From Bryoerythrophyllum caledonicum (lineage: Eukaryota > Streptophyta > Bryopsida > Pottiales > Pottiaceae), in the NCBI GenBank assembly GCA_963971425.1, contig OZ020514.1, positions 46,281,527 to 46,345,526 on the forward strand: a stretch of DNA of 64,000 bases, read 5' to 3'. Below are positions 27,483 through 59,483 of the stretch, one piece after another. The notes under the pieces were generated by a model that saw only the letters and a program-made list of their open reading frames with translations, was not told the origin of the DNA and ran no database searches. Made by a program: the position numbers and the translations under genes. The number at the start of each line of letters is the position of its first letter. Within the stretch, counting starts at the first letter, position 1.

Positions 27483-28376
27483 ATACCTTCGTGCTTTCTT
27501 CGATCCGAGTCTCTGATGATGTTCTTTGTGTCGATTTTTTTTGTGCAGGCTTGGCTAGATAAGGTTCCCGCTGTTTTCACGAAGAATGACTTCACAAAAG
27601 ATGATGCCACTGGTCAGCCAAAGCTGCCGCTTCTCTTTCGCGATGAGCAAATTTATCAGAACTGGCTTAGCATCTAGGAGAATTGGAGTAGTGGTCTACT
27701 ACCTGATCCATATGGGGTGCAATGCACTTTTCCTGGCGGTGTGGACGGCGACTCTGCCGACAAGGCCGATGATGCGGATGCTGTGGTGAGAAGAAGAGGG
27801 CAAAGTAGAGACGATACCAAAGTAGGGCCTAGAGAAAGGCCGATCTTGAGCCGCTATATGCCATGTGGGAGACCGATATTGCCAGAGTTGCTAAGCTGGT
27901 CATGGAGAAGAAGTGCTCGATTAAGTCGACCAAGTCCACGAAGAAGGCTCTTGTTCTTAAGGGACTTGAATACTAGTGCAACATCGAGAAGAAGAAGAGA
28001 CTCATCAAAAATGAGTTTATGCACTACTATAAGTCGAAGCCGCTGAAGTCAAAGACTCAGAAGGATGTGTCTTACACGGAGACAGAGTACGGTGATGCGG
28101 TCAATGAATTCAAGGTTTCGGAGTTTGTCGTTGAGTCTTCGTATGACAGGTTGATGAAGGATAAGGGTGGCATTAAATTCTTTGCAAAGCGAGGGAATAA
28201 CTTGGCGCCATCTTCCAAGCCAGAAGACTTTCTAGCCGTTCTGAAGTTGCTCTTTGATCAGCAGAGGCAAATTTCATCGCAAGAGCGTCTGCCCGAGCCA
28301 TCGACTGCCGTTGAGTCGTTTTCCGCCTTTTATAGTTGCAGGGTTGTCTTCATAGACAGACACGGGCCCAAAGACA

Positions 28377-28660
28377 GCGGACGGACGGACAAAAGGACGG
28401 ATGGACAGGACGGACAACACTTTTTGGCGGACAGTTGCGTGTAAAAAAAAATTACAAACCCTAGATCAAATTTTCAACTTACCCCCAAGTAAAACACGTG
28501 TGCACAACACGTCAGACGACTTTCTTCGTCACATCAAGGGGCGGGCGCGTGCCTTCGGACCGCGCGCGCAGCATTTGGGGCCGGGCGCGTACCAATCTCG
28601 ACCGAGCTTTCATATAAGGCCGGGCGCGTTCCAATTAGGGCCGGGCGTGTACGATTATTT
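28377..28660 (+). repeat. Left subterminal repeats of the hAT element
   Basis: A (GGAC)n-like tract at 28377-28432 is followed at 28536-28650 by four or five GC-rich words of the type GGCCGGGCGCGTACC. The same words in inverse orientation lie near the right end (58855-59280). This is consistent with transposase-binding subterminal repeats, although internal copies also exist. Confidence 0.6.
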
Positions 28661-28797
28661 ATTTTAATGTGGTGCTTTCATGAATGGGCACTCTCAACAC
28701 CAAGTACATATTTTAAAACCGCGGTACTATTGTACCATGCTATCACCACACCACTAAAGTCACTTTTAACTTGTAGTATCCTCCTGTCCGTCATCTA

Positions 28798-31700
28798 TTA
28801 ATCATCTGAGCTTGAGGATTCTTCATTGTGTTTTCGCTTCCGTTTTGATCGGCGAACATTTTGGGGAAGAGAAAGCCCGCGAAGCACCACCGTATTGTTG
28901 CCAGGTACCTCATTGCAATCCTCATCGTCTGCATCATCGCCCGATGATGAGAAGTTCTCCGCTGCATTTTCCAAGATTGGTGCCACGTACTCCTCAATCT
29001 CCGAGGCTAAGTTTCGTAGTTGTAGCTCGGCTCCAGTAGTTGATGCGGCGTTCACAAGTCGTTTTACTCGGATATTCTTCCTTAAGTCTGTTACTCCATC
29101 CATGTTTCTGGAGCGGTTGCCTTTGGCCCCAATGACTCTCTCCGAGGTTCCACTTCGCCAAGGTCCCATGAAAAAAGGGAGAGTACCATTGTTCTCGCCC
29201 CTCCGTGTCCCTAAATGGCTGCTCATAGTAGAGGACCCAACCCTCGCGGAAAGAAGTTGTGGGGTTAGTATTGCGCGCTCCACACCACCATTTGGGCTGA
29301 GTGCGCTACGGTGGATGGGTGGCCGAACTATTGTTGAAGAGGTCTTTTTCTTTACGCGTAAAAGAGTTCTTCCGATCGATGCGGTACTTTGAGCACGTGG
29401 CCGCCGAAACAAATCTTGGAGTGACATGTCTTCCTCTGAGTCCGGTTCTATTGCTTGAGGCAAAACCGCATTGCCTTTCACAACTTCAATGGACCCCGTG
29501 GTGGCCATTGGCTCATGGGATTCATTATCGTTTCCACCACTGCGCACTTCGTTTCCATCGTGAGAAAATGTATCGTTTGCTGCAATGCCAATGCCATGAC
29601 CGTCGATATCAGGGCCATCACCATTAGAAGGGCCTGAGGCGCTAGAGCCGTTTTAGTTGGGAGACTGATTCTCCGAGATGTTGTCATCTCCATCAAGATT
29701 GGCCCCCAATGTCGACCAATCTTCCTCTGCCCTAGCTTCTTGGGCACGGTCTTCACCCGATAATTCTACTATAGTATGGACTGCTGCTGCGTCGACATCA
29801 TCAAACACAAAAGGATCCATTGGGTCACCGTGTACGTTGTGAAAATGGTCATGTAGTGCATCTCCGCCGTGCTCGTTGTTTGCAGAGTTGTCCCTAGGTG
29901 GGCTATGATCAGACACAGGGTTGTTGTCACCGGCAAGGTCTTCCCAATCGACGCCCATCCAGTTGTAACCCTCATCATCCAACTCCAAGCCCTCGTCCAT
30001 TGTGTTTGAAGGAAGTCCCCCATCTGAATCAGACTCCTCCGAATGCACATTCTCCTCATACCATCGAATCGGATCAGGTCGAGCACGTTCTCGGAGCAAT
30101 CGACTATTCGTGTAGATGTAAACCAAATGTTCCGCTATCTGCACTCCCAAGCGATTTTGGCTCTTACTATGCACGAACGAATACATGCTCCAATTACGCT
30201 CACATGACGAGGCCGAGCAGGTTTGTACTAGTATACGCTTCGCAATGATAGGCAATGATTGCCCGCCCACGCGGTTCCACCATTGGTGAGGCAAGAGGTT
30301 GTTGTTTTCAATTTCCTCAGCTTCCTCTGGTGAATATAGGCCTCGCAATTCTTCATACTCCGTGATTTCGAGCATTACTGCCGAAAAAGACACTCCGAGT
30401 GGACCACAGAGCGTCATAACAACCTTGTTTAGGGCCCTTTTGGCCTCACCATTGTTTTGAATTTGCAAGTTATTGGCTAGATAAGGATTCAATAAAGCCC
30501 CTGCATAATGGAGATCTGTTGTCATCATCTCCCAACGCCGTAGGAATGATCCTTCAAGGCGAGTTGCAATTCCGTCAAGCATGTTGAATGGCGCATTGTG
30601 CCGCTTGAACACGTGCTCCTTTAGCTTGTTCATGGTCACTCAAGCAATTCCCATTGCCGGAGTGTCACCATCAAAAGTCCGCAATGCCTTTAGTACTGGT
30701 GCCACTACAAATTCAAAGTTAGTGCACCGATGCCAGAAAGTCTCGTCTAGAACGGTGGCTGGCACCTGCGATGCCTTCGTATGGGCACGGTGCCCGTTTT
30801 GCCTATCAAAAAGAGAGGATACGTAGGATATCCATGCTCGATCTATCACAACCATCTCCAGGGATTCTTCACTTCCAACAGACGATGGATCATTATGTAA
30901 TTGCATGCAAACCTTGTTGTTGTTGGCCACATCAGAGACAATTTTGGCGAAAATCGACGAAAAAGGGCCATGGGCACATAGTGGTTCCGGATATAAAATG
31001 CAATTTGTTTCGCCTTCTGGATGAGGTCTGCAAACATGCCTTCCTTCCCCCAGTCCTCGAGGAGGAGGTCCAAAATATGTGCACAACACCCTTGAGTATA
31101 TATGTGCGGGTACTCATCGTTGACCTTCTTCATTGCCCCCAACATGTTTGAAGCATTATCCGTGCACACTTGGACCACATTCAATAGTCCAACCTTACGG
31201 ATAAAACTTTTCAATTGGTCCCCTATATATGCCGTAGATTTCTTCATACCCGTGGTGTCTATAGACCCCAAGAAGATATCACCCATTGGACATACAAGCA
31301 TGATATTCATGAGAGGGCGACGTGTAACATTGTCCCACCCGTCCGAGCATATTGTTGCCCCATACTTGACAATATCTACGCCGGTCTTCTTGTCCAGAAG
31401 GTCTCTCACTTTTTTTTTTAGAGGCTCAATGTATGTCGTCCTCATGGCATTGTACGATGGCGGTGTATAATCGAAACCCGCCTTTGACGTTGCGAGGGTG
31501 GCCTTGATGAAGGCCGGATGTCTAACCACGTTGAATGCAACGTTTGCTTCATAAAAAAAAAGTGCCCATGACTCGTCCAACTCTTTTCGTTTTTCTATTT
31601 GCTAAGCCTCTGGAAAGCTCCATTGTTGTACAGATCTTGGTGTTGATGATGATGCTTGGCTTAGATGATTTGTGGACTGTGTGTTCTCATTTCGAGTTTC

Positions 31701-32021
31701 CAAGAAACTACCTTGTTGGATAGATTGGCTAGAACAAGGTTCAGTGGAACATGTTGCTAGTGTGCTAGGAAGGCCAACGATCTCCGCCTCGGTCATCCTA
31801 GTAGGAATAATATTCCCGCATCTTTTAAAACAGGCCTTAGCAGCTGTTGGGGCCTTAGTGCACGAAGTCTTCGTCCATTGTGGATACCCATAGTGTGACA
31901 TGCACCTCCCACGTTTGTATGCAAACGTATAATTGCACCAAACACATGTCACTTGATCCTTCTTGTTAAATGTGTACCATGGAGCCCACTCCTTCGTTTG
32001 AGCCCTTTGTTGAGACGACAT
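28798..32021 (-). pseudogene. hAT transposase remnant with BED finger
   Basis: Start at MSSQQRAQTKEW (32021). A BED-type finger segment has CVWC and a downstream His (CMSHYG). A Ser/Thr-rich linker follows, then the DUF659/RNase-H-like region with ICSDGWDNVTRRPLMNIM, VQVCTDNASNMLGAM and GCCAHILDLLLEDWGK. The hAT C-terminal dimerisation segment WWNRVGGQSLPIIAKRIL...SASSCERNWS is at about 30140-30280, then a long acidic tail. Breaks: in-frame TAG near 31606, a frameshift near 30870, in-frame TGA at 30640-30642 and TAA at 29653-29655. The family binds element ends and cuts and pastes DNA in the nucleus. Its place near the left terminus fits its being the mobilising enzyme of the giant element. 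Confidence 0.85.
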
Positions 32022-32229
32022 CACAATAAAATTGGCGCGCAATGTTGTGCCAAAGAGAATCCGCCAAAAGTAATAGGAAATTGTGTGTGCATAGAAAATG
32101 TTGACCCGAAGGTCACTCACAAAGTTGTAGATTCATGCAAGGAGCCCAATAAGGAGTTCCAGGACACGAAGACAAGGATGTGAGGTGAGTCAAGCACATC
32201 ACATATAGTTCTTATATAGTGCTGGAGCA

Positions 32230-32395
32230 AGAGCATTTGGAGCCGGGCGCGCACAAGGGTGGCCTGGCGCATTCTCTATGTGGCCGGGCACGCACGCTAT
32301 TGGCCGGGCGCGCACGCTATGGGCCGAACGCGCACGCCGTCGGCCGGGCGCGCACGCTGTGAGTCGGGCGCGCACAATGTTGGGGCATGCGCACT
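32230..32395 (+). repeat. GC-rich minisatellite (GGCCGGGCGCGCACG)
   Basis: Seven or eight units of about 20 bp, each with GGCCGGGCGCGCAC followed by a variable spacer, lying between the transposase start and the 3' end of paralog 1. Confidence 0.8.
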
Positions 32396-32615: not shown

Positions 32616-33540
32616 CTAGAATCCCTTAAAGCCAGTAAAAAATGAAAGAAGATTGTCTTTCTCCTGAACTCGTGCCTTCAAGTTTTGAATTTCTTCAAGA
32701 CATTTTGCAACTTCATTAGCCTTCTCATCGAGCTCTTCTCCTAGATCCTCAATTATGTTCAAGCTTTCTTTGAGTCGCTTCACAACTCAAAGATAATCGT
32801 CACGACTCACCCAATCACCCTCCGTAGACTTTTTTTATTATCCACGCCCTCCTCAGGTACCGCATCCGTCTTCGTGGCATCTTCGTCTTGTTGTGAAACC
32901 GACGGTTTAGGGTTCGACGCTGATATGATGGACAATTCTTGTTGCCTACGCAGAGATTGATGACATCTACTATCCGAGTCGGATGATGAAGACGCGGACC
33001 ACTCGATTGTTTGATTCGAAGGTTCAACTTCCATGGTTTTCCCGAGACCTTCTCCTGGAAACTTCCACACAAACGGTATTGTTAATCCAATGACTGGTGC
33101 CATCTTGGAGTGTGTTTGGATTTCCATTGTCCTCCAATCAACCGGTACGCCAAGTACCACCTCTGCGTAAACCATCCGTAAAATTGAAATGTTTACCGAA
33201 TTGCGGCTCAATTCGCCTCGTCGTAAATGTGCTGGTACGCTGGGATACAACGCTCCTTGAAGAACTCATTGGTGCAGTACCCCAAGTTGGCCCTGTTTGT
33301 ACGTCGCATTAGAGAATACCGCGAATATGGCCAGAGGTGCCCCAAATGACACCATCCAATGTATTTTGCACATTGTGCAAATGTCCATGGAGTTGGAACT
33401 GACTCCCAACCAGAAAATACCTTCATCTTCTCATCCATCAACACGTGAAGGCGCTTCTTCTGCTTTGAGCGTGCGTGACAAAAATCATGTTGTCGCTTTC
33501 CGTGGGGACTGCTAGTGGTAGATGGTTGTCCAGAATCCAT
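32616..33540 (-). pseudogene. Paralog 1 of a plant-like three-gene family (truncated, coiled coil)
   Basis: Start MDSGQPSTTS at 33540. It has a conserved N-terminal basic segment (KQKKRLHVLMDEKMKVFSGW, VPTPWTFAQCAKYIGW), then GYCTNEFFKERCIPAYQH, then after a frame change near 33210 ISILRMVYAEVVLGVPVDWRTMEI. An acidic Ser-rich stretch follows, and in yet another frame a C-terminal coiled coil (KRLKESLNIIEDLGEELDEK) ends at TAG 32616-32618. Paralogs 2 and 3 share the blocks in the same order. I do not recognise the family. Unlike paralog 3 it ends before any RING domain. The sequence upstream of the start is shared with paralog 2. Confidence 0.6.
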
Positions 33541-33714: not shown

Positions 33715-33805
33715 TATGGCGGGTGCATACGACCAAGAGGCGCGCGTACGCTGGAGGGCTGCGCGCGAATGCTGGAGGGCTGTGCGCGTACGCGAGAAGG
33801 GTGTG
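33715..33805 (+). repeat. Short GC-rich minisatellite
   Basis: Three or four degenerate units of the GGGCTGCGCGCGAATGC type upstream of paralog 1. Confidence 0.6.
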
Positions 33806-34665: not shown

Positions 34666-35618
34666 CTACGACTTTAAAGTAAACACCAACTTCGCGTATT
34701 CCTGGATTTGATTGTCCTTTTCTAGGAGTACAGCGCGTAATTTTTGAAGTTCTTCTTTGTTGCGGTTGGCTTCTTCTCCAGATTCTTGTTTTCCTATAAA
34801 CTCTGCTAATATTTAGCAAGAAGTTGAAGATGAGCCTCTCGTCCAATTGGAACATCATCAGAAGAATCTAGGTTTTCATTGATGTTCTCATATGCAACCG
34901 CATCCATCTCAGTTTGATATTCTTCCTTGCCGGAATCTTCTCCAATTGTCGGTGTTTCTTGGAGGGCAGAATCTAGACAATGGCATTTAATAAAGCCCTC
35001 AATCTCCTTGCGAATAGATGGGTCGCATCCAGTGTCCGAGTCGTCACTAGAAGTGTCAGACCACACGACTTCCTCGTTTGGAACTTCAACCTCCTTCGCT
35101 TTTTTTCCTAGAGCTTCGCCCGGAAACTTGAGCTCTATTGGTAGTGACGCCGTGGATACTGGTGTTATCTTGGAGTTTGGTTGTATTTCCATCGTCCTCC
35201 AATCGACTACTACTCCGAGTATAATCTCAGCATACACCATACGTAAAATGGATAGATTCACCTCGTTTCGGTGAACCTTTGTCGTGTTGTAGTTGTGCTG
35301 GTACGCTTGGATGCACCGTTCTTTGAATACTTCATTGGTGCAATAATTTAAATTACCCTTGTCGTATTTCCGAAGTTGCGAATACTGCGAATGCGGCCAC
35401 ATTCGTCCCAAATGACACCAGGCAATGTACTTTGCACACTATGTAAATGTCCATGGGTTTGGTACATCTCCCCAGCCTCGAAATGCCTTCAACTCACCAT
35501 CGATGAATATGTGAATGCGTTTCTTTCGCTTGTGGTTGCGTACTTGTCTCGCATCACGCTCTCGTTTCTTTATTTTCTTCTCGGAAGCCCGAATCTCAAA
35601 AGGCCCACTTGAGTCCAT
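34666..35618 (-). pseudogene. Paralog 2 of the three-gene family
   Basis: Start MDSSGPFEIRASEKK at 35618. Blocks in order: RKKRIHIFIDGELKAFRGW with VPNPWTF; after a stop and frame change near 35440, NYCTNEVFKERCIQAYQHNY; LSILRMVYAEIILGVVVDWR; an acidic region with SDTSSDDSDTGCD; then in another frame a coiled coil (NRNKEELQKLRAVLLEKDNQ) ending at TAG 34666-34668. It is most similar to paralog 1 in blocks, length and upstream sequence. The function is unknown. Confidence 0.6.
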
Positions 35619-35774: not shown

Positions 35775-36100
35775 AGCAAGGCGCGCATGCCCCCCGTAGG
35801 CCGCGCGCGTACGATATCGGACGGTCTCGCGCGTATCAATCATGGTCTCGGGAAGAGGAACAAAATGGCCGGGCGCGCGCGAATGGGGGCCCGGCGCGTG
35901 CGCTTCAGGGTTGGGCGCGTGCGCTGTGAGGCCGGGTGCGTGCGAATGGGGGCCGGGCGCGTGCCTTTTGAGGCCGGACGCGCATGCTTTGGGGCCGGGC
36001 GCGCGCGAATGGGGGCCTGGCGCGCACGAATAGTGACAATGCGCGCGCGAATGGGGACCGGGCGCGTGCGCTGTGGGGCTGAGCGCACGCGAACATGGAC
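35775..36100 (+). repeat. GC-rich minisatellite (largest block)
   Basis: About fifteen units of about 20 bp with GGCCGGGCGCGYGCG-type cores. The regular spacing leaves overlapping open frames on both strands, which are not genes. Confidence 0.85.
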
Positions 36101-36301: not shown

Positions 36302-38734
36302 TCACGCATCGGCTCTACTTGGTTCACCACTTCCTGAGGCCCCATCATCCAGCAATTTACGAGCCGCTCGCGTCCTCTGGTGACGCCCATCCGCATTTAC
36401 CAGAGCACGTAACATTTCGGAGTTCCGAAGTGCTTTGAGAGCCTTCATAGTCGCCGGACTATGTTCCTCAAGAAGGAAATCAATAGCTTCCTCCTTCCAA
36501 GTTTCCTTCCATTGCGATTCTTCCCATTGCAACGCATTGCGAAGGTCAAGATTAGTGGCCTCTCCCAATTCTGACACCACACGTCCTTGGTGATTTCACA
36601 GTTTCCCATCTCGATGTCGCCCGAATTGAAATAGCTTCCGCCTAGCATCCCAATATCCGCCCATGACTTGGTAGAAGAAGTTTCGTTTACCAACATGGTC
36701 CGCGGTGGTTCCCGATATGAGCTTGTTGGCCACTCAAACAATTTCTTCGTGGTCATTTTCCCAACCAAATTGCGTGCTTACACTAGACCTATGTAGTTGG
36801 TGGCACTGCGCACGCCAATTCTACACCAAATCTTCTCCCCACTTTTGAGCATAGGCATCCCCAAGCGCATTCTCCGGGTTCAACTCCCAACTAGGTGGCA
36901 TGTAGGCCGTGAGGCCAAACACTTCATACAAGCGTTTATGAAATGGTACTCTACACTTTGCGCAAAACCTACGTGTCAAGATACCACCTAGCAGAGACAT
37001 CGAATGGTATAAACACCGACACGTGCCAAGAGCATATGCACCTTCTGGCCCGAAAGGATTTAAACAAACCGGGCAAGCATCTTCATTTTGCGTGAAGCTT
37101 GCTAGTGTTGGCCATAATTTGCGTGGTGCCACGTTTCCGCTTGGTTGAAGGGCATGAGAAGACTTAGCCTCTGCGTGGTCCCACTCCAACTTTGCCCAGT
37201 CAATAGATTTACCATCTGGCAACAGAGACAATTCAGTTAGAAACAACTCGTCGATGTGAGCCCAAGATGTGAGTCCAAAGTCATGGTGCGTACTATTCGT
37301 CAGATATTCGTTGTTAATCTTCTTGAATTCTATTGCCATTTGCCTCGCACGGTCAACATTCAAGATGCATGCCACCTTCCATTGATAGTACTGCTCGCCC
37401 ACCGATCTAATCCTTTTTTGAAGGATGTCGTTTGCTCTACGAAGCTGAACTAGTTTCGTGCTTGGATTAGCTGGGGAAAATGACAGAGAATCCTCGGTGC
37501 CGATGGAATCTACGAATGGCTGCACTGCTACAGTCGGCGGCGGTAGAAAAACCAACGGACGGCTAGCGAAGCGTTGACGCGGTGGTCTTGTCGAGGTGTC
37601 TAGCAAGCAGCTAGTAATGTTGCCAATAACATTGGCGATCATTGTCTTGTCCACACCTTGAGCAACTTCGCCAATATCAACCTGGCTGGCAACACGTTCT
37701 CGACGCCACTCTTCTATCTCGGCTGCTTGCTTGGTGATAATATCACCCTTTTCACTAGATTGCAGCTTGAGGTTTTCAATCTCTTCTTGGAGACGTTGAA
37801 TCATCTCATCCTTCAAGCTGATAGTGTCCAATAACTCCTGGTGAGCATCGACGGTCGTACTTCCGGACCCTGATGCTACATGCCTGGTGTTGGAAGTGGT
37901 GACTACGACATCCATCATTGGCATTTCATCCACAACATGGATGGGTTCTTCATCTCCAACGCCCTCAAGCCTCACGGCGAGTTCATCATCGCCAACCAGA
38001 TTTATGATTGGTAAATCTACCTGGCCACCTCCTTGAACCAATAGACGTCCTGCTTGATGGAGCTTCACTCGTTGGCGCTTTTTTCGTGACGCACACGCCA
38101 CTAGAGAAGTCGATGAACGCCGACCTACACGTCCATCTGAGTCTGAATCCGGTGATGAATCTGACTCTATTGGAGCTACTTCTTCTCGGCCATCCGTTTT
38201 TTGTGGCCCTAGTGCCGCAAAATGAAACATAGGATGTTGCTCCCTAGGCACATCGGCATGCATCCACACCCTCGGCATTTTTGGAGTTTTCCGCATGGTC
38301 TTCAAATCCACTCGCTTATTGAGAACGACCTCTGCAAATACCATGCGAGCGAGATAGAAGGGACAATCATTGCGGGGCATGAATTCAAGCTCGTATAACT
38401 ATTGGTGAACTTGGAGGGCACGAGCTCGAAACGCCTCATTGATGCAATACTTCAAATTCGCCTTGTTTGCGCGACGATTTATTAAATGGCAATGTGGAGG
38501 AAACATCTTCGACAGATGGCACTACTCGATATAATCCTCGCAAGTGACAGGCAACCATGGCAATGGCTCATCTTGCCAACCCACGAATGCAATCTTTGTT
38601 GGATTGTTGAACACGTGCATCCGCTTCTTCTGGAGCTTCCCGTGCCTCGCCCTATCTCTGTCTTTCTCCCTCTTCCTCTGCGCGGTGGACATTGGTGGCT
38701 GTTGTTGGGCATCCGGCTCACTCTCACTCTCCAT
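36302..38734 (-). pseudogene. Paralog 3: long family member with coiled coil and RING-like finger
   Basis: Start MESESEPDAQ at 38734. N-terminal blocks match paralogs 1 and 2 (KKRMHVFNNPTKIAFVGW; KYCINEAFRARALQVHQ; FYLARMVFAEVVLNKRVDLK). The 38380-36821 frame then adds acidic and Ser-rich linkers, a coiled coil (LKDEMIQRLQEEIENLKLQ) and a C-terminal zinc-finger-like segment CPVCLNPFGPEG...CRCLYH...CAKC (about 37075-36940), spaced like a RING. Downstream frames to 36302 (WADIGMLGGSYFNSGDIEMG; WKEEAIDFLLEEHSP) look like its C-terminal tail after stops and a frameshift near 36570. A ubiquitin-ligase-type role would be an inference from the RING-like cysteines only. Confidence 0.6.
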
Positions 38735-38999: not shown

Positions 39000-39375
39000 T
39001 GGGAGGGCGCGACCATTTATACTAGTGGGCCGGGCGCGCACGCGGCATGGGGAACGCGCGCATGCCGTATGGGGACCGGGCGGGTACGCTGGGGTCTCAC
39101 GCGTACATTTCGGGGTCTCAGGCGTAAGGTTTGGGGCCTCGGGCGTAGGATCCACGGTCGGGCGCGTGGACATTGGGGCCGGGCGCGTGCGGGAACGGGC
39201 TCCATCCGTACGGGAACAAACTCTATTTGTGTGGGAACAGGCTCTTTTCGTGGAGGAACATGCTCTATTCGTGGAGAAACTGGCTCTATTTGGTTACGGG
39301 CCGGGCGCGTTCGCTGGAGGGTCGGGCGCGTGGGGTCTTGGTCAGGCGCATGCAGACGCGCATGCGAGGCTAGGG
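39000..39375 (+). repeat. GC-rich minisatellite upstream of the kinase-like gene
   Basis: Units such as GGGCCGGGCGCGCACGCGG, plus a stretch (39190-39295) where the word changes to 'gggaacaggctctatt'. It lies between the starts of paralog 3 and the kinase-like gene, a possible bidirectional promoter interval. Confidence 0.7.
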
Positions 39376-39563: not shown

Positions 39564-40916
39564 ATGGCCACTGATCGTAATACTGGAAAGCGGCCCGCGA
39601 TGTTGATTTACATGCTCCAGATGCATCTGAGCTTCCACCTACTAGCGTTGCGGAGTCGAGCTGCAATCCTTCCGATGCACCGAAGGCACCGTCGAAGAGG
39701 GCGAAGCAAAAAATGTCTGCGCACGAGAAGGATGCCGGTTATCCACCAAAGGAGTATACCGCATTTCTTCAAGGTGTGGCAATACAATACTACCGTTGAT
39801 GGTGTGAAACTGACGTGGTGCGACTCCGTCAAGTTTATTTGGAGAAGGGAGAGCCAGGAATCATGTGCCTACAGGCCGACCTCCAGTCGAAATTCGAGCG
39901 CGCTCTGGAGAGTTCTGAATCGTTCAAGGATGCATATGGCATGTATCACTATGCCTCATTCATGGAGAGAGTAATCACTCAATGTACGAGTAATGCATCG
40001 CATGTATTCGATTGTGAGGTGAAAAAACCTCGCGGGGGCCAGCATCAGCCACGGGACTTAGAACTCCGCAAGTTCCTCGAAGGTGTGAAGACCACCATCG
40101 GCAGGTTTTCAAGTTCTCGTACGAGAGGTATGCCTTGGAATGAACAAGCGATGAAATCAGCCATGGAGGCGCATATGTTGCATAGCGTGCAATTCCTTCT
40201 AGAAGATATCGGAGTTTATGGACTTTCTAGATATGACGCCGTTGGTGGATATGGAAGGTTCGGAAGGTCTGCATCGTGGGTGTGCGAGCCATTTCGGCAT
40301 ACACGGAGTTTGCCGGGAAAATGCCAACGGCGTCTCATTCAAAGGAGAAATTTAGACAACGGTCTCAGGAGGCCATGATATGTCATGTTGCACACCCAAG
40401 AGTTATAAAGTTTTGGGCGGTGAATACAAAGAATATGGAGGCGTACACATTGTGGTGGAATGGTGGTAGTTGGGCCCATTTTAAAACCGTCGATTCAAAG
40501 GCAAATCCGGCGGCTTCGAGCAACTCAATCCTTTCAGCTCCATATATTTCGGCGGAGGATACAACACAAATTTTAGCCTTCCGAAAGAATAGAGCAAGAC
40601 TTGCATGGGCTTTGATGTGCACCATGGCCCAAGTCCACAAGGCAAATGTCATTCACAATGACATCGCTTCCACAAACGTGCTTCTCCACTTTCCTCCAGA
40701 GAAACAAGGGTCCGTCTTCATAGGCGTTTGTGATTGGAGAATTGCGAGCTGAGTATCACACAAAGAGCCATCAAAATATGGATTCCGGACAGACACGGAG
40801 CTTGACAATCAATGTTGTAGACGACATTGGGTAGCTCCATAGATGTTTTACAAATTCGGCCCACAAGATTCGGAAACGGCATTGGATGTGATGCGGAAAA
40901 AGCTCGTATGTGAGCG
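39564..40916 (+). pseudogene. Protein-kinase-like gene, 5' part (split by a nested insertion)
   Basis: Starts MATDRNTGKRP at 39564. A frameshift near 39598 leads to a long N-terminal region (YPPKEYTAFLQGVAIQYYR; YASFMERVITQCTS). After another frame change near 40280 comes the kinase core: IKFWAVNTKNMEAYTLWW, a catalytic-loop-like HNDIASTNVLLHF (HRD reads HND, Asn retained), CDWRIAS in the DFG position, and HWVAP followed by a stop in the APE position (about 40830). The C-lobe is missing here and reappears at 58378-58686. The atypical loop suggests a degenerate kinase even before decay. In-frame TGA near 39801 and stops near 40750 and 40839. Confidence 0.65.
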
Positions 40917-42530: not shown

Positions 42531-42533
42531 AAA

Positions 42534-43145
42534 ATGATTTCGGTTTTTGATCCAGATGTGACAATGGAGCGTGAAGGACCAGCACAGGATTTCATTCCTG
42601 TTTCGGTGGACAATGTGGTTGTGTATGGGATCTGGTCACGCATCGCACGGAGTTTATGGGATTTGACCCCAACAAGTAGCGACGCTGAGGTGCAGGTAGT
42701 GGTCCGACAGTTCATGACGATGCAGAAGACAAGTCGAAGGTGGTGGAGGATGGTAACTCCAACATTAGAGGCCACTACAGTTCGGGCCACGCTCGCAATG
42801 TCCAAGGTCTATTCAGGTCGAAGTAGGCAGGGTCGCATTCTATGGGTGCCGCATTTCCGAAGGTCGATCCATCGGAACCTACTAACTTTGGCAACCATGT
42901 GGATCATACCAGTGCGCTACTTTGTGCCTCATCTGATGCAGCCACCGCAACATCTATGCGGTGCTCATCTACACGCGTTAATCATGCTACTCCGCAAGTC
43001 TCGGGAGAGGATTGCACGCGATGGGCCAACGGCAATTCTAGATGATGGTCGGAATGTTTGGAGAGCTCTCCCACCGACCGCATTAATGGACAGATTTGAC
43101 CTTGATGGACTCGTAGCGCGTCAGCCTAGGTTCCTCCTTTTATAG
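42534..43145 (+). pseudogene. Unrecognised protein-like fragment
   Basis: Open frame starting MISVFDPDVTMEREG that becomes arginine-rich after about 42700, whereas a shifted frame (VHDDAEDKSKVVEDGNSN, AAFPKVDPSEPTNFGNH) looks more natural there. This suggests a frameshifted, decayed gene. No domain was recognised. It lies in the nested block, downstream of gene B in genomic order but on the opposite strand. Confidence 0.3.
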
Positions 43146-43997: not shown

Positions 43998-44045
43998 ATT
44001 ACATGTTGACATGTTGACATGTTGGCATGTTGACATGTTGACATG
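43998..44045. repeat. Decameric tandem repeat
   Basis: Five copies of a 10-bp unit TGTTGACATG just past the 3' end of gene B. Confidence 0.8.
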
Positions 44046-44149
44046 AAGAAGGCAAACGTTTGCAAATTGGCCAATATGTAATAAAAACTACGGATGGTAA
44101 TCCATCCAGCAAACATCAAACTTCAAACTTCATACACTCAGTTTAAAAG

Positions 44150-49918: not shown

Positions 49919-49919
49919 C

Positions 49920-52298
49920 CACTATAAGAAACCCGTGTTTTTTGTTATGTCCTTAATCATGTCAGCGTGTTTTTTTGATGTCTTGGAGCTAGCCAGTAAT
50001 GTCCCCGTGAACGTGAGGATGTCCACGCGTCAATAATGAACAGTGGAGGTGGGAGGGTCCCGAAACGCGCGTGCGAAATAGGAGACGCGATGATGTCTCC
50101 AACAACGCGCCCGTCTCCGAGGACGTCATCGAGGACATCTTGGGTGACGCAAAACTGCCACGCTGGCACCGGACAAGCGTTTCACCTGAGGTAAGAATGT
50201 CGAAGTTACTGTTGTGCAAGGTAGAAAGCAGCCCAACGTTAAAAAAAACAACGAAACGGGCAGCGGTCTGCAAGAGGAGGAAAAAAAAGGCACGAGCCTT
50301 ATAAAACTAGATTTTTTTTTAAAAATAAAATAAATAAAGTATATAAAATTGAAGAATATTCTGATTATATTTATTAACTTTGATCCTTTGAAATTTTTGA
50401 TTTGTCCACTTCGTATCAAAATGGTTTCCAAAATAAAATTTAATTTTAAATATTAAAAATACAAAATATTAATTAATATTGTAATAATATTTTATAAAAA
50501 CTGATTATTCTGTAATTAAAGCGGACATATTAAATTCAATATTGTATATTTAAATATTAAATAATATTTATTAATTAATATAATATTAAAATACCACTTT
50601 TCTTTCAAAACCCGAATTATAAGGAATTTAGGGTGATTTTGTAAAGTCCTTGGTGGCTTACCCATGTGGACATATTATATATTTTGTAGTTTACAGCACT
50701 TCATCTACATGGCAAACACAATTCCATGTCGGACAAGGTGACACGTCATTCTGTGTATAGGTCCACGTCACTTGAGACATCCAATTGAAGATGTCTCGAG
50801 TAACGTCTACATGTCTTTGAGGACATCCCACAGAGACGTCTTTGAAATCATCAACAGTGTTTGGCAAAACATTGACATGTCTTGGAAAACATCGACATGT
50901 CCTGGAAAACATCATCGTGTCTTGCAAAACATAACCATCAAGTAGGATGAATTTCGTCAAGTTCATTGGATGAATAGAGGCGGCGAGGGTTAGCTGCTCC
51001 AGGCATAGTTAGGTCATGAGGCGGCTAGGGTTAGCTGCTGCAGCCATAGTTAGGTCATGAGACCTTTAAGTAGAATTTGAGGTTGCACAAAGCTCACTTT
51101 GGCCTTCATTTCTCCAAGTAGTTAGAGTTTATAATGTAGAGGTTGGAGTTTTAGAGTGTAGACTGAGTTTATAAGTTAGAATGTTAGAGTTTAGAGTGTA
51201 GAGGTTAGAGTTTTGAGTGTAGAGGTAAGAGTTTAGAGTGTAGAGGTTAGAGTTTTGAGTGTAGAGGTTAGAGTTTAGAGTGTAGAGGTTAGAGGTGCAG
51301 TGTTGGACATGCAATGTGCTGTGAGCGACATATAGACGTGACCATGTTGTAGAAGACGTATGCCGCAGCACTTAGGAAACGCAGGGACGTCTTTTGAAAC
51401 ATCCCCGTGTCTATGGAGACATATTTTAAATTGCGTGTATATCATATTACCACATTTGCAAGTAGGCCAGTAAGCATGAATTTGGATGAATGTACATGTT
51501 ACATGTAAGATGAGGTATTCATGTCTTGTACTCATGTCTTGTACAACATACTCATGTCTTGTACAACGTATTCATGTCTTGTACAACATCTCTTGATGTC
51601 CCTCAAAACACCATCACATACAGAGCGTCAACAATACCATGCATCAGGGGATGTCACGTCAGACACGCATAAGTTCTTTGAGACGTCTGCAATGACACCC
51701 TCAGTGCCGACGACCATGGGTCGGCAACGTATTGGAGGACGCGATCATGTCCATCGCCACGTCCTCTAGGGCATGGCGATGTTCAACGAAATCAGCATCA
51801 AAATCCAAGTAGCGTTGGCATAGGCGTCGAGCAGGACATCTCCACGTCAACCCGGGACGTCTTAAAAAACACAGCCATGTTACCAATGACGTCCCCGCAA
51901 ACACGAATCTGAAAAAAAACCATGCAAATCTCTGCTGACGTGGCACGCCACGTCACTCTTTCCCGGGTCCACATCAGAGGCCACGTGGGTCCACCTCACA
52001 TGCCACGTCAAATGCCACGTCACCAATGGAGAGGATGAATTTCCCGACCATGTGGCACTGCCCGTCATCCTACAGCTTAGGTGTCGTCTACGTGGCGCCC
52101 AGTTGGCACCATTTCCAGCCTCCCAAAATCTCCGAAAATCGTTCCTGTCGCAGGGATGTCCTCGCGTTTTTGGTGATGTCCCCACGCGTTACAGCGTGTT
52201 ACACGCGTTGGTACGTCAGAGGGATGTAAATTCGGATGTCTACATGTCTCCTGGGACATGATTCAGGACGTGACAAAAAACACCGGTTTCTTATAGTG
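49920..52298. mobile_element. Non-autonomous CACTA (En/Spm) element
   Basis: Termini CACTATAAGAAACCCGTGTT and, inverted, AACACCGGTTTCTTATAGTG, flanked by ATC on both sides (49917-49919 and 52299-52301), the 3-bp duplication of CACTA elements. Subterminal regions carry many inverted copies of words like ACATGTCTTGGAAAACATC, the usual transposase-binding repeats. The interior has an AT-rich part (50300-50640) and a tandem repeat (51120-51300, unit GTGTAGAGGTTAGAGTTTT). No transposase is present. Confidence 0.9.
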
Positions 52299-52301
52299 AT
52301 C

Positions 52302-53049
52302 GCTCTCTTCTTCCCTCCTTTCCTCCCCATTAGAGCGCACCCTCAGTCGTCAACGCAATCTCTGCCCAACGCACTACTAACAGAAGGCTCGAACATACAA
52401 AATTAAGCGGAAGAAGAGGTCGCCGCCAAAATCTAGACCTCCATATTTGTAGTGGCCACGGATGAATGATTAGAGCATTGAGTTCTCCGCATTTCATCAT
52501 TATTGGTCTACTAAGAAATCGGATGAAAAGTACATCATAGACATGCACGTGTCTAGGTGCCGATCGACTATGACTTTCGAGTACTCTAACTTGTGTGATG
52601 TCAAATTCAGAAATGGCGCACTACTACCCACAATGAGTACTGATGACGTACGGGGCCGTAAGAGTGAGTAGGATGTCTCATTCAAGCACTATCATACTAA
52701 TTGGACTTGGACCAGTCACTACATTCCTCATTATGAACCGCAAGTGGCCGTAATTTGAAATGACACCTTGAGAACAAATGATGGAGAAGTACCACTTCAT
52801 GGAATAGCCCCCACTCATCACTTCAACCAGTCATGGCCGTCAACGTGAGCCATTTCAAGTTTGATGTGGACTCATCATTCATCATGGTCATCGCACATCA
52901 CACATCATGCCAACCTCTTCCTTCGGCTAATTAACTTCATATCTTGGTCATTCCCATGACTGCCCTCATTATTCACCATACTTGCTAATTTACATCATTC
53001 AAGAAGGAAGTTTCTACTGAATATTTCTTCGACTGCCAGCATGTTCGGA
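52302..53049 (+). other. Upstream region of gene B with a decayed coding fragment
   Basis: Without the CACTA element, 52302 onward would lie directly upstream of gene B. On the plus strand, 52474-52671 stays open and looks protein-like (HYWSTKKSDEKYIIDMHV, LLPTMSTDDVRGRKSE), then ends at TAG. No family was recognised. The rest has no clear gene. Confidence 0.3.
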
Positions 53050-53472
53050 TTAGCAACTACTCAGATCATAGATCATTACATGCGTCTCTTCTACTCGATT
53101 CAAATCAATTGAGACTTGCATTTCGTCGTCAACTAGTGCGGATCTCTTTCTCGACGTCTCCGTCTGAACAGGTAGTCTAGCAAACTCGCTAGCCAGGCTC
53201 CTCGTTGTCCCTGCCATCCTTCTCGACCTCGTGCTCCTTCTTGGCTCTTGCGGTCGCGTTGTCTCCCCCTCTCTTTCTTGAAGTGAAGCTGTAGTGGCCC
53301 TCTTCTCAAGTTGGGCTCGCGTCCTCTTGTTTCTGTCAGCCTCTTCTGTCGCCAGCTTGCTAACCTCTCCAACCCTAGTAGCCCCCTGCGCCGTCTCCTG
53401 CTGCATCCGTGACCGTTCTCTTTGTCTTTGTGTCGAGAAAATTGGCTTCACCTTCTTACGCTTATTCTGCAT
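53050..53472 (-). CDS. Hypothetical basic, Q/E/R-rich protein or exon
   Basis: Open frame of 140 residues starting MQNKRKKVKPIFSTQ, rich in Arg, Glu and Gln (RRSTRSRRMAGTTRSLASEF), with a candidate donor ACGCAT|GTAATG within its 3' end near 53083. It could be a separate short gene or a 5' exon of gene B, which is on the same strand. No domain was recognised. Confidence 0.3.
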   Translation of the reverse strand: MQNKRKKVKPIFSTQRQRERSRMQQETAQGATRVGEVSKLATEEADRNKRTRAQLEKRATTASLQEREGETTRPQEPRRSTRSRRMAGTTRSLASEFARLPVQTETSRKRSALVDDEMQVSIDLNRVEETHVMIYDLSSC

Positions 53473-53981
53473 GTGTTCTTACATAACACACATCACCCAC
53501 TCTAAAACATAATTCAAGAATGACACGGCCTTTCGGCGGTTATACCCCATCCGATGTTAGGGTTTCTATTCATTAGAATGGCGCTCTCTTGGGAACACCG
53601 TTCCCACTATGGCGGCCGCCCCCTTCTTCCTGCTCCATTTGATGTAGATTGATCTGTCCACAGTCCAGTAGGGGTCATCCACAAAAATTCTAAAATTCTT
53701 GTTGCCTCTATTTCGTACAAAACACTCTTACCTGTACTAAACAGTTATAACAAGACATGATCCGAAGTACCTGTGATATTAATGACAACCGTCAGACGTC
53801 TTGCATTAGAATGTATGCATTTACCAAAATTGTATTTAAAGTTCTCCCTAATTTTACGCGTGCGCCGTTCTCTACAACCACTTTCTATTAATTTAATCTT
53901 GTCACGACACTGCCATGATCAGTATTTTAGCCAACCATTTTCGCTTCCATCACAAACACGCACCACTCGTCTTCCCTTGTC
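53473..53981. other. Interval upstream of the MULE-like transposase
   Basis: No gene seen. It is probably the promoter interval between the divergent 53050-53472 frame and the transposase start at 53982. Confidence 0.3.
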
Positions 53982-56900
53982 ATGGCTTCTTCTTCTCAAG
54001 CTCCACCGTCTTCACTTTTTTTTCTTCGTGCCAGTGGCGTAGGCGTGCCACTTACTTGTCGTTTAGATTGTGACGGCGTTGCATCGGTGACTTCCTTGTT
54101 ATTGAGTCTCAGATTCTCATTCTTGCAGGACAGCATCTACATTGAGGAAGAAGTCTACGACGAGGTCACCTCGGAGCTCACTCATACTATCGCTATGAAG
54201 CACATTGTGGACGTGGATTCACAAAGAGTGTGGAAACTTACCCCAGGACAGTACCGGGTATATGGACTCTTAGGTTCTACAATCTCTACCCCAACCTATG
54301 TCCATACTGCTCATCGATCCTTGTCATGTAGCATGCACACTCCACTCCCAGCTGGAGTTAGGATCAAGGTAGAACCTGGTACGGAGAGCGTAGTAATCCT
54401 TTCCTCGGATGATGAGTCTTCCTCTGAGACAAGTTGTCAGCCAAAGTTTTCTACCCCATCCTCTTGTCCCCCTCCGATTACCACTCCCATGTCGTGCCCA
54501 CCTAGGACTACCACACCGACGTCGTATCCTCCTACATCTCGTACACCAGTGTCATGCCCTCCTGATCGTTCAATCGGCTCTTCTGTACTAAGTGTACTTT
54601 TGTGCTTGCGACAGCTGCGTCAACGTCCGGGTTGTAAGAATCCATTGAAACTTTTAGATTACGATAGAATGCGCCATGTGAAAGTAGACTATCTTCCTCA
54701 CCAATATAATGGTGATGTTATTTTTGAGCTTCCCCCGGCGCAACCGTCAGCGTCATCTACTCAAGCAAAGTTCATGCATGGAATGGACAAGAGATACGAT
54801 GGACAAGTGTGGACGAAGACTATCACAACAAATATCATCAATGACCACGGACTACATTTCCGGACTTCCAAGAGTGTCGGGCATCTACGATGCAACAATC
54901 GTGATTGTGAATTCCTGCAAAGAGACCATCGAACGGCACCGTTTAATGCTTCAGAATTTGAAGGAGTTACGCCGCATCCATTCACTTCAGGTCAGGTACC
55001 TCTTCTGGGCTCGACATTGGTTTGCAAAATCTGTCGCATGCCTCCTTCATGTCTTGCATCATGCCCTGCTATAGTTTACTATGTTTCGAGCAAGCACAAT
55101 ATCCCACGTGCTTGTATTCATCTAGGGTCACACAACCATCCCGTAAGTGTAGGGGATTATCGGGATGTCAAGGAGCGTATCAACTCCTTAATTAGTGATC
55201 AGATTGAAAGAACCACTCTTGCCACTAAAAGTTCCATAGTTTTAGAGGCGAGTAAGGACCTCGTGGGAGAGTTCTTGTTGCGCGAAGAGGACGATCCCGA
55301 GAAATTACTCAGCTTTGAGGAGTTAGTTCCAATGTTAGATAAGTGCAAGGACATGGGATCTCCAAGTATTCGTAACAAAGTGGTCTCATTTCGATACCTT
55401 AAGAAGTATGGCGTATTAGACAGCATCACGAGGTTACGGGGACTTAGCAATTGGGCATTTGTTCAGAAGAACATGTTTTCAGGTCAAGGTGATGATTCTG
55501 AAAAGGTATTTGTGTTCAAGATGTCAGAAGTTGGACCGGGTTCTGGCGTGGATTTGGTGAAGAGTATGCAAAAAGGCGGTGACCTGGAACACGCCTGGTT
55601 GATGTTTGATCACGTTAAACGTGTCAAGCAGTGGACAACTATGGCATGCCATATGTATGACGCCATTTACTATCGTGTCATGAGCATTGCATGCTGTGAT
55701 ATGCAATCGGAGGATGCGGCAGCGCAGATGGTATTTTGGAAAAATTTGAATGCTGTGATGGCTTGACATGGACTTCCGTCACCTCAATTCAAAGGATTCA
55801 TGGCGGACAGTGCCCAAGCTAATTGGAATGTTGTTCGAATTATTTATGGTAGTGGCAACAAAGACGAAGTGATGGTGGATAGAGAGCGCACGTGCCAATT
55901 CCACATGGCACAATTGATGGTGAAGCATTCTGACAAGTACATCACGGAAGGACCTTTATGAGAGCAACACAAGGCATTGTGCCACCAATACAGGAAGGCA
56001 AACACAATGGAAGAGGCTGATAGATTATACCAATCTATTCGTGCATGGTGGGCTTCGTCGGGAGCAGTCTCGGAAAGCGGGTTTCAACACCTTGATTTAT
56101 GGTTGGCATTTTGGCACTTCCGTTATCGACAGTGGGGTGGATTCATGACTCAGGTATTTATTCATTGTTTATGTACCATTTTGCCTCTTTCATTTATTAT
56201 CCTCCTAGTAAACGTGCTTGTTTGTATACAGAGCATGTCTAAAGATGAACTCGCGGAAATGCCCTCGTGTAACCTTGCTGAATCCATCCACAACAAGTGG
56301 AAGCAAGCTTCAGGCAGTAACGGTGGAGATTTGTACGTCGCAATCGTAGACGATTATGTCCGGGCCTTTCTTCAGGTGGTTAATTATTATCAGTTTCTCA
56401 AAGGTAGTGTTGTAGGGACAGGTCCGAGCAAAGAAGAGTTGAAGCTTCGTGCTGCCGAACGAAGAGCCCAAAAGACGGGTGATCCACGCATTCTAGGCGA
56501 TTCTATGATGGATATGCCGGGGGCAGATGAATTCTGCACGCATGATTCTTATATGCAAGGCGAGGAGGTGTTTGGCACACACAAGCGCAAAGAAAATGTA
56601 CCTCTTGGAGCCGATGGCGAATCACATCGTCCCGATAGGGTAAACTATTTTCATCCTCGGTACTCCTCTAGACGACTTCGGTCATCATCATTTCCTTTGC
56701 CCACTATTGACGAAGGCCATGGTATTTCATATGAGGAGGTTACACCATCACAACCATCGCATCCAATTCCAACTGCTTCTCTAGTGTGTAGGGTTGGAAT
56801 TCGTCCTCTTACGACAGTTCAAGAGTCTCATGCCATTATAACCGAGTGGCATATTGCTCATGCACCGGCGAACTCAGCTAAGAAGTGTTGGGCGCAACGT

Positions 56901-57689
56901 GGGGGAATTAAAAAGAAATGCACGGAGAGGATTGTGAGACGAGGAAAGCCAACTCCTGCACCTACCTACAATGGCAAATTCAAATGTAGAGCAAAGAACA
57001 CCTACGAAGACACTGACTTTTACTTCTGCAACGATGACATCGACCGTTGTGTGAGTGGTCTAAGACGTCCATGGGTCTGCGGAGAAAAGCCTCCTATCCC
57101 AGAAGTTTGGCCTGTTATGATTGGCACGAACCGCACTCATAGTGAGATTGTGGACTTACAACTAGCCGGATTTCAACTCCCTCAGAAGGAACAAATATCC
57201 CCGAGACGCCTGTTCTCAACAGGTAGACCACCATTGAAACAGAATTCTGTTTCTGTCCCCGAGCATCCTGACAAGTATCTTGCGAATAGGAGTGGGAAGA
57301 ATTTGAAGCGTTCTTCCGCTATGCCCAATACGAATCAAAGACCGTCAATGGGATCAACCGAACTCCTCACCGCATCTATTACTTCCGTGCGCATGGTTCT
57401 ACATCTTGGCTTTGGATGCATCATCACACTCATCTGAGGTATCCTCCCTCATGAGACATTATATACACTAACGGTGTGCGCGTTTCCCCATTGTACATGC
57501 CCAGCCTTTACGAAGACCATGAACGAATTTCGTGGACGGAGTCCGTTCACATATTGCAAGCATTCGTACTACATATTCTTGAAGATTTGTAAACTTCAAC
57601 CCAACGTCCACTTCTTCATTCATGCACCCACCTTCAGCTTCAACGAGGTGAAACTTGTTCTTGAAAGTGGCATTCTCGCACATTCTTGA
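53982..57689 (+). pseudogene. MULE-type transposase with zinc finger and SWIM domain
   Basis: Start MASSSQAPPSS at 53982. Introns with donor GTAGGC near 54037 and acceptor TTGCAG at about 54129, and at 56154-56230 (GTATTT...ATACAG). N-terminal Ser/Pro/Thr linker. WRKY/GCM1-like finger with CNNRDC, CPAIVYYVSSKHN and HLGSHNHPVS (about 54890-55140). DDE core: LMFDHVKRVKQWTTM, FKGFMADSAQANWNVVR, the CxxH-type RERTCQFHMAQ and CNLAESIHNKW with the likely Glu. C-terminal SWIM finger CTCPAF...CKHSYYIF (57497-57590). Breaks: TGA at 55764, TGA at 55959, a frameshift near 57310. MULE transposases cut element ends and make 9-bp duplications; the matching ends were not found here. Confidence 0.75.
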
Positions 57690-57727
57690 ATTTAGAATTG
57701 AATACCTACTTTTCTTATTTTTGTAAG

Positions 57728-58190
57728 GCGTACCCTCTCGTTTCCGAGAGGGTACATGATCCTCTTTTTCAAATACATTGTACTCAAACTATTTTAAGGG
57801 CAGAAGATCAAGAATTGTATGTTATACTTTATGATAATCTACTATGTCATTTTCACACTACATGAGACCTATTATTAGAAATGTACTTGCTCATTTTCAT
57901 CCATTGCGTGCTCCAAATTTAATAGTTTTCCATTATTGGAAGATATGTAGCCTCCCGGTTCCGAGAAGGTACATCCGCAACGCGGTTATCAATATTTAAT
58001 GAACAACTATTTTTAGATGTGTACCGTCTCGGAAACAAGAGGGTACATGATCGTATTTGTACCCCAATCAAAACTGCAACTATACTAAATGCGCACCATC
58101 TAGGGTCCGAAAGGGTATTTCATTATGGTTTCCCCACTTTGCAGGATCCTATTTAAGAAATGTACCCTCTCGTTTCTGAGAGGGTACTTG
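57728..58190. repeat. Hairpins with GTACCCTCTCG arms
   Basis: Five copies: 57730-57755 (perfect 11-bp arms GTACCCTCTCG, 4-nt loop), near 57950, 58021, 58102 and 58161-58186. They lie downstream of the transposase and share the core of the arrays at 43.5 and 47 kb. Confidence 0.85.
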
Positions 58191-58199
58191 GTCATTTTT

Positions 58200-58376
58200 A
58201 TTTGGAGATACAACTGGAGAAGGAGAAGAAATAGAAAAAGAAATAAAAATGAAGAAGAGAAGTAGGAAAAAAATGGGAGGAAGATGACGAAGAAGAAGAA
58301 GAAATAAAAATGAAGAAGAGAAGTAGGGAAAAAATGGGAGGAAGAAGAGGAAGAAGAAGAAGAAGAAAAATAAAAG
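58200..58376 (+). repeat. Purine-rich (GAA)n tract
   Basis: Imperfect GAAGAAGAAG repeats with two copies of 'aataaaaatgaagaagagaa'. It lies at the junction between the nested block and the resumed kinase-like sequence. Confidence 0.7.
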
Positions 58377-58377
58377 T

Positions 58378-58686
58378 AGTCATGTATGCCTACAAAAATA
58401 AACATTTAAGGCAAAGAGGGGAGGATGTACTTGAAACTCCAGAAATCCTAGCAAAAATGGTCCACGGTCTTGGGTCCCAAAAACTACCTTTTTTAGAATA
58501 TGACCAAAACATCTTAAATCATTCTTCAAATCAACCGTCAACTATGCAGCTTTTCAAGTGAAGATCGACAAATTACTGGAGCGAGATCCCCTCAAACGTC
58601 CAACACTCTGCAAAGTGGTTGACGAGCTAATGGCTAAACCATTCAACTTTGAAGTTCCGGACGCTTGCTTCTGCTATGAGATATAG
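58378..58686 (+). pseudogene. Protein-kinase-like gene, 3' part
   Basis: VMYAYKNKHLRQRGEDVLETP resembles kinase subdomain IX onward. After a frame change, FFKSTVNYAAFQVKIDKLLE and RDPLKRPTLCKVVDELM match subdomain XI with its conserved Arg-Pro, ending at TAG 58684-58686. Same strand and missing exactly the N-terminal and core parts present at 39564-40916, so I read it as the other half of that gene. Confidence 0.55.
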
Positions 58687-58854
58687 ATATTTTGACTTAG
58701 CGTATTGATAGTGAAGGTTTCAATTGTTGATCATTTTGCAATACGTACTAGCATTGTGATGTAACGGTGCTTTTTGCCCATCTCGTGATAAATAAAAGAT
58801 TAACATTTTTCATACACATTGCGACATGAGGCTCATGCATGTTAAGAAGTGAGA

Positions 58855-59280
58855 GAGCGCGCTACCTTTGAATTCAATACTCGTACGCGCGCGTGACCCC
58901 AAAGACCACGCGCCAGGCCCAGCCCCCTCCACGAACGCGCCCAGTCCTCCCCCTACGAACGCGCGCGACCTTGGCCGGATGGGCCAGCCCCTCCAAGTAT
59001 GCGCCCGGCCCTTTACCGCGCGCGCCCGGCCACTTGCGATAAGCGCGCGGTCCTCCCTGCACGCGCCCAGTCCCTCACAGTACGCGTCCGATTTACCCCT
59101 GTACGCGCCCGGCCCAACACGGTACGCGCCCGGTCCTCCCATGTATGCGCCCGGCCCCTTTAGTGCGCTCCCGGCCCATATCCGCACGGGCCCGACCCCT
59201 TTTGTATGCGCCCGGCCCATCTCCGTACGCGCCTGACCCCTTCACGCGCCCACCCCCTGTCTGCATGCGCTCGACCCTGT
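58855..59280 (-). repeat. Right subterminal GC-rich minisatellite of the hAT element
   Basis: About twenty units of ACGCGCCCGGCCC type, the reverse complement of the left-end word GGCCGGGCGCGTACC. The low-complexity open frames on both strands are repeat artefacts. Confidence 0.85.
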
Positions 59281-59385
59281 TGACGACGTGTCAACCATGT
59301 AGTCGCCTTCCTGGCAGTGTGTAAATTGATTTACCTTGAGTCATGGTCAAACTAGGGTTGACCCTTATCGAACGGATAGCAGCCT

Positions 59386-59473
59386 CTACCGGACGGACAT
59401 CCGGACGGACGGACACTACCGGACGGACGGACACTACCGGACGGACGGACACTACCGGACGGACGGACGGCCG
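59386..59473 (+). repeat. (GGAC)n tandem repeat at the right end of the hAT element
   Basis: Repeats of GGACGGACGGACACTACC, 18-bp periodic, ending 10 bp before the CCCTG terminus. The left end has a similar GGAC tract. Confidence 0.85.
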
Positions 59474-59483
59474 AACAACCCTG

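Follow-up and report, generated by a model that had tools for sequence, protein, structure and literature searches.

hAT elements are textbook small cut-and-paste transposons. The present analysis concerns a locus in Bryoerythrophyllum caledonicum (GenBank assembly GCA_963971425.1, contig OZ020514.1, positions 46,281,527 to 46,345,526; these 64,000 nucleotides are referred to below as the window), in which two facing hAT-type terminal repeats enclose 31 kb. A first-pass annotation of the window had read these 31 kb as one giant, cargo-carrying hAT, inserted into a coding exon of a gene (gene A). Is this the true size of the transposon, and are the genes between its ends its own? We conclude that the 31 kb very probably represent three layers, a hAT element of about 13.5–13.8 kb, a nested element of another family and a CACTA-type element, in a copy that has since decayed.

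The ends belong to a large hAT family

The window element begins with the terminal inverted repeat CAGGGTTGT (28339..28347, plus strand), the opening bases of a family-specific left end, and closes with ACAACCCTG (59475..59483, minus strand), which gives an end-to-end span of 31,145 bp and an inverted identity of 9 bp. Both fit the pattern [T/C]AGNGNNG, given for the short inverted repeats of plant hAT elements in the accessible part of one survey (PMC6027215). The flanking bases, TATAGTTG on the left (28331..28338) and TATAGGTG on the right (59484..59491), are identical at 7 of 8 positions; with a 27% probability of identity at each base, agreement this good or better would arise in about 0.0006 of cases. 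Taken by itself, the 9-mer is weak evidence: the window contains three exact matches (forward at 28339 and 29916, reverse at 59475), and allowing one mismatch brings 19 occurrences where 14.7 are expected, which is no enrichment. Across the genome it is enriched, with 2561+2583 occurrences compared to 1155+1128 for the reversed pattern. We searched the 437-Mb genome with longer pieces of the ends. The first 46 bases of the left end, with up to three mismatches, gave 252 matches, and the last 29 bases of the right end, with up to one mismatch, gave 307; the reversed controls gave none. The window ends are those of a large family, and the matching termini and duplication of the first-pass annotation hold. 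Chance pairing of the two ends is ruled out by these family-wide matches together with the uninterrupted gene-A relatives described below.

Thirty left-end loci were fetched. Twenty carry a forward left end, including the window (L009) and L023, which re-reads the end of L024; the 10 loci without a forward end were left out of the short-range step. In 5 of the 20, an exact right end follows within about 1.5 kb, defining four copies of 257 bp and one of 479 bp, all with 8/8 duplications; the other 15 have no exact right end at this range. Longer copies measure 3,131 bp (7/8), 2,966 bp (8/8), 8,879 bp (8/8) and 13,778 bp (3/8). No right end was found within 10 kb at L041, L043 and L050, nor at L049 and L063 (20 kb), and at L039 the second end is only an inverted left end. 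Pairing the left ends with 67 right ends on contigs C1–C3, among the matches listed, yielded 22 end pairs within 45 kb, window included, and 10 of the 21 non-window pairs were checked for a duplication. This is 8/8 at pairs spanning 32,215, 28,783, 17,904, 4,792, 3,409 and 2,963 bp, and 7/8 at 2,778 and 1,598 bp. Across 19 other copies and end pairs (L039 excluded), 13 have 8/8, three 7/8 and three at most 3/8 matching bases, so that the family shows the 8-bp target-site duplication of the hAT superfamily. Many of the measured copies are short derivatives of 257 bp to 4.8 kb.

The target is a member of a high-copy repeat

The element separates a left part of gene A (25241..28338, plus strand) from a right part (from 59492 at least to 59897, plus strand). 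Once joined, the frame is open over 27980–28338 and continues without a stop over 59492–59696, as the first-pass annotation had proposed; stops at other places mark this gene-A copy as decayed. We compared the site with 12 of 151 matching loci, the window among them. In 10 of the 11 non-self loci, the joined flanks align uninterrupted across the junction, with 89.8–92.9% identity over the spanning piece, indicating that the two halves of gene A were once one sequence. The target bases read TATAGGTG in eight of these ten loci, TACAGGTG in one and TATACGTG in one, and the original duplication was thus TATAGGTG, its left copy having been altered by one base. Seven of the ten spanning alignments split elsewhere, about 0.9 kb off the site, and the eleventh locus (L056) aligns to positions 2–251 of the query only. 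The search for empty sites among gene-A paralogs, called for on first inspection, has thereby come out in favour of an insertion, and with the transposase that remains inside (see below) it is a hAT element that entered the coding stretch.

Gene A itself had to be reclassified. Far from an ordinary single-copy host gene, it is a high-copy repeat with at least 151 matches to one exon (150 of 1395 candidates scored); many family members are 80–91% identical, and some relatives lie in open frames of 460–540 amino acids (aa). A protein search with the joined exon gave no significant hit among 44 candidates, and Pfam gave none above cut-off in the gene-A stretches scanned. Directly upstream of gene A lies an array of 126-bp repeats (24742–25702).

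The 31 kb contain a nested element of another family

How much of the span belongs to the hAT element is apparent from the 13,778-bp relative. It is colinear with window positions 28654–40894 (92.7% identical) and then with 58520–59432, ends in the family's right end, and has 87 native kinase-coding bases where the window has 17.6 kb. Searches with window 40700–42000 and 57440–58880, 40 candidates being scored in each, divide at the same borders: among the matches listed, 33 other hits of the first are confined to the kinase part and stop at 40893–40894, and 32 other right-part hits of the second start at about 58520. Conversely, hits to the 17.6 kb start at 40893–40898 at three places (on C1, C7 and C9), and two on C1 stop at window 58518 and 58524. 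At six loci (on C14, C11, C12 and C6, and two on C1), namely those found in both hit lists, the kinase part and the right part are exactly 87 bp apart; one of these was read and contains B3, one of the genes described below, the kinase-like gene and the right part in a row. Positions 40895..58519 are occupied by a distinct nested element that belongs to another family, also exists by itself and here replaces 87 bp of the kinase-like gene. Its left terminal repeat lies at about 40895–40930. Beyond the point at which the window's copy breaks off, both C1 copies proceed to a sequence that repeats this left end in inverted orientation, indicating that the window's nested copy has lost its right end; one copy extends from about C1:23426000 to about C1:23441970, roughly 16 kb. 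The 13,778-bp relative and the split hit lists rule out 31 kb as the element's own length, so that the nested elements of the first-pass annotation stand, but its 31 kb as the size of the hAT itself is not supported.

An assembly join of unrelated pieces might be suspected in DNA this dense in repeats, with runs of N in several related loci. Since the window is free of N, and uninterrupted relatives explain the junctions of both the hAT and the nested element, we regard this as extremely unlikely.

The nested element carries a third layer at 49920..52298, a 2.4-kb CACTA-type element whose CACTATAAGAAAC ends match at 24 of 25 positions and are flanked by a 3-bp duplication, ATC, the configuration of CACTA elements; no open frame of at least 150 aa lies inside 49920–52298, on which no profile search was made. 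The nested element's own genes are a multi-exon gene at 44140..49920 (minus strand; limits set by eye), with a ParB-like motif recognised by eye only and without a family match above cut-off, and a long gene of two open stretches at 53931..57437 (plus strand), with no Pfam match in 53931–55766 and 55962–57437. NCBIfam returned no family for six proteins. As for a Mutator-like assignment, inverted ends are present, and the sole copy with both flanks shows no duplication. A resemblance seen by eye between frame 48681–49637 and the gene-A exon at 26740–27300 produced no alignment. Palindromic repeat arrays around CTCTCG...CGAGAG lie beside and within the minus-strand gene (43576–43907 and 47180–47933), with isolated ones at 41845 and 57735. 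In L064 and L066, two further copies of the nested element, hAT sequence adjoins one of the ends; this may point to a preference for hAT elements or to nesting in repeat-rich regions.

Was the nested element nevertheless acquired first, and were the 31 kb, or most of them, moved as hAT cargo? Ends and duplication do frame the full 31,145 bp, and large spans recur, as end pairs of 17,904, 28,783 and 32,215 bp (C1:39795090-39812993, C1:16655526-16684308 and C1:6229904-6262118) have perfect duplications. Moreover, the nearest relatives of the nested element are 94–98% identical and hAT copies 93–98%, depending on the stretch, from which no order can be derived; we consequently dropped identity as proof of a younger nested element. 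Against a single giant unit, however, stands that no second copy with the same insert at the same place was seen among the matches listed, the 33 other kinase-part hits all ending where the insert begins, and that the insert is devoid of the terminal repeat on its right and the hAT of 87 bp. We therefore consider transport of the whole 31 kb improbable.

Two of the larger spans were sampled. Of the left 10 kb read in the 28.8-kb span, only about 2 kb match the hAT, and B3 is located 3.9 kb away from the right end. The leftmost 1.5 kb of the 32.2-kb span are hAT sequence, and among its probes the one closest to the right end hits the kinase gene. Both spans have the appearance of hAT bodies enlarged by other sequence. 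At one border of the 32.2-kb span, two family left ends stand head to head, 172 bp apart (C1:6262118, minus strand, and C1:6262291, plus strand), and the reverse one starts this span.

The hAT part carries four further genes

Without the nested element, the hAT part amounts to 13.5 kb and comprises a transposase gene, three genes termed B1–B3 and the kinase-like gene, in line with the several non-transposase genes first noted. The broken transposase gene (28798..32132, minus strand) has a DUF659 match (PF04937, E 3.2e-34) in 30846–31601 and a C-terminal hAT dimerisation region (PF05699, E 1.2e-5) in 29653–30639, both above cut-off, and is thus predicted to have encoded a hAT transposase with dimerisation region. 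B1 (32807..33540) and B2 (34806..35618), both on the minus strand and with broken frames, are paralogues, 45–67% identical over aligned coding parts, and share 34–46% identity with the N-terminal part of B3, of which B1 is likewise a short paralogue. B1 had no Pfam match in the part scanned, and B2 none above cut-off. B3 (36305..38734, minus strand; left limit taken from copy L067) has stops in the window copy. Its frame at 36821–38398 found 18 relatives in other data (7,996 candidates scored), 13 of them 661–896 aa long and five with a precomputed RING-finger domain. When three relatives were rescanned, two passed the RING cut-off of 27.3 (27.4 and 30.5) and the closest failed (16.8); no RING match was reported in the window B3 or in the B1 and B2 stretches scanned. 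B3 thus appears akin to RING-finger proteins, and a RING-type label for B1 and B2 was dropped. A structure predicted for the B family reached a mean pLDDT of 48.1 and was not used.

The kinase-like gene is split by the nested element into a 5' part (39564..40894, plus strand) and a 3' part (58520..58686, plus strand). Its protein-kinase match in the window falls below one cut-off and just above another; a relative exceeds the Pkinase cut-off with E 1e-7. Approximate pN/pS values, obtained by a crude method from pairs of decaying copies, are 0.15–0.38 (against copy L048) and 0.33–0.74 (against L040) for the kinase parts, 0.39–0.95 for transposase parts and 0.41–0.94 for B parts, compared to 0.79–2.0 for a non-coding control.

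The gene content is common to copies. The 8,879-bp copy, with its 8/8 duplication, contains the transposase, B1, B2 and part of the kinase-like gene, and the check for smaller contents between the same termini, named in the first-pass annotation as a possible refutation, had a mixed outcome: the many copies of 257 bp to 4.8 kb speak for it, whereas others hold 8.9 and 13.8 kb with these genes, and the three spans of 17.9–32.2 kb have perfect duplications. B3 has 82 genome matches including the window, the other 81 at 74–90% identity. Leaving out seven places on small scaffolds, 21 of 75 B3 places, window included, are accompanied by the kinase part or by either of the two ends at fitting distance and orientation, which is a lower bound.

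GC-rich repeats recur throughout this part. Repeats of about 21 bp with a GGGCGCG core occur near the left end (28537..28660, plus strand), upstream of the transposase gene (32245..32380), of B1 (33740..33793) and of B2 (35780..36093), between the divergent B3 and kinase-like genes (39005..39330) and near the right end (58887..59245, minus strand), which also has GGACGGAC tandem repeats (59390..59468, plus strand). Clusters of at least two cores are confined to the hAT part within the window; single cores occur elsewhere too. From its sequence, this arrangement would fit a promoter or transposase-binding design common to these parts.

One may ask whether B1–B3 and the kinase-like gene are host genes that were captured by chance and play no part in the transposon, which would be compatible with the layered structure. 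Gene capture is known from Pack-TYPE elements, according to the accessible part of the source (PMC8903248), and constraint on the B genes between copies is weak. On the other hand, other copies contain these genes in unchanged order, B3 has its 81 further matches, 13 of its 18 relatives in other data measure 661–896 aa, and repeats like those at the element ends precede these genes. We lean against chance capture, yet it keeps a substantial share of the probability.

Several observations weigh against the layered structure as proposed. The 13,778-bp relative has no target duplication (3/8), and among the copies read, none combines an intact 13.8-kb body with a perfect duplication. The end pairs of 17,142 and 4,200 bp agree at 2/8 bases only, perhaps as mispaired ends. 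Six of seven probes from the 32.2-kb span match neither the 13.8-kb body nor the window, and some spans may hold other cargo. At 54 of the 75 B3 places, none of the neighbours named above was among the matches listed, so that the neighbour count is no demonstration that all B3 copies lie in hAT elements. Constraint between copies is uneven, and sequence identity does not date the nested element relative to the hAT.

Elsewhere in the window, related large tandem arrays with units of about 40–46 bp occupy 18711–23202, 14884–16229 and 4808–5417, a decayed retrotransposon-like polyprotein, in which stretches resembling reverse transcriptase and integrase were recognised by eye, lies at 8136–13084, and TAGGGTTT-like repeats are found at 2957–3020.

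Discussion

By its duplication, ends and predicted transposase, the window element is placed in the hAT superfamily. It shares with DUF659-type hAT elements the 8-bp duplication, short inverted ends, DUF659 and the C-terminal dimerisation region, and differs from them in that the family body measures about 13.8 kb and includes four further genes. For comparison, 7,144 bp is the length of the longest plant hAT consensus in the accessible part of one survey (PMC6027215). The nearest described case by size and gene content is ToxhAT of fungal wheat pathogens, which, in the portion of the report available, is a hAT-like element of about 14 kb with several non-transposase genes and 74-bp ends, set 20.2 and 25.6 kb apart by later insertions (PMC6737239). 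The window element resembles it in all three respects, size, non-transposase genes and ends spread by later insertions, but belongs to another host group, has 9-bp ends and carries genes other than those named for ToxhAT, so that neither its ends nor, as far as genes are named there, its gene set are those of ToxhAT. Within the partly accessible literature covered, with preprints and most subscription papers outside it, ToxhAT was the only large gene-carrying hAT noticed (PMC6737239, PMC9594970), and novelty is unproven.

Pack-hAT and other Pack-TYPE elements likewise have hAT ends around non-transposase coding DNA; as described in the part of the source available, they are non-autonomous and carry captured fragments (PMC8903248), whereas here a transposase gene is part of the unit and the gene set recurs in copies. 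The window element is not a Pack-hAT, because a transposase remains within the ends, both here and in the 8,879-bp copy. The copies of 257 and 479 bp, which share the window element's ends and have perfect duplications, resemble hAT-derived miniature inverted-repeat transposable elements (MITEs); the window copy is not miniature. Starships, too, are giant cargo-carrying transposons of eukaryotes, but they are fungal and moved by a tyrosine recombinase.

We propose that a hAT element of about 13.5–13.8 kb, comprising a DUF659-type transposase, B1–B3 and the kinase-like gene, with GC-rich repeats of about 21 bp before its genes and at both ends, would have inserted by cut and paste into the coding stretch of gene A, duplicating TATAGGTG. 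The kinase-like gene would then have received an element of another family, some 15 kb in length when its own insert is subtracted, probably after the hAT had reached its present place, and this nested element in turn a CACTA-type element. A deletion would have taken the right end of the nested element and 87 bp of the kinase-like gene. The transposase would presumably move the whole 13.8 kb, and the extra genes may serve the transposon.

What, then, does this locus tell about hAT elements? In the first place, that nested insertions can make a transposon appear giant. A multi-copy family with a body of about 14 kb, recurrent regulatory-looking genes and derivatives down to 257 bp nevertheless bears on how much a hAT element can carry. 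It is tempting, though for now rather doubtful, to see here a hAT lineage with a normal unit of about 14 kb, its own accessory genes and promoter-like repeats, whose ends mobilise spans of up to about 32 kb including nested elements. If this is true, hAT elements may keep accessory genes, which raises the question of what role a RING-type protein and a kinase would play for a transposon.

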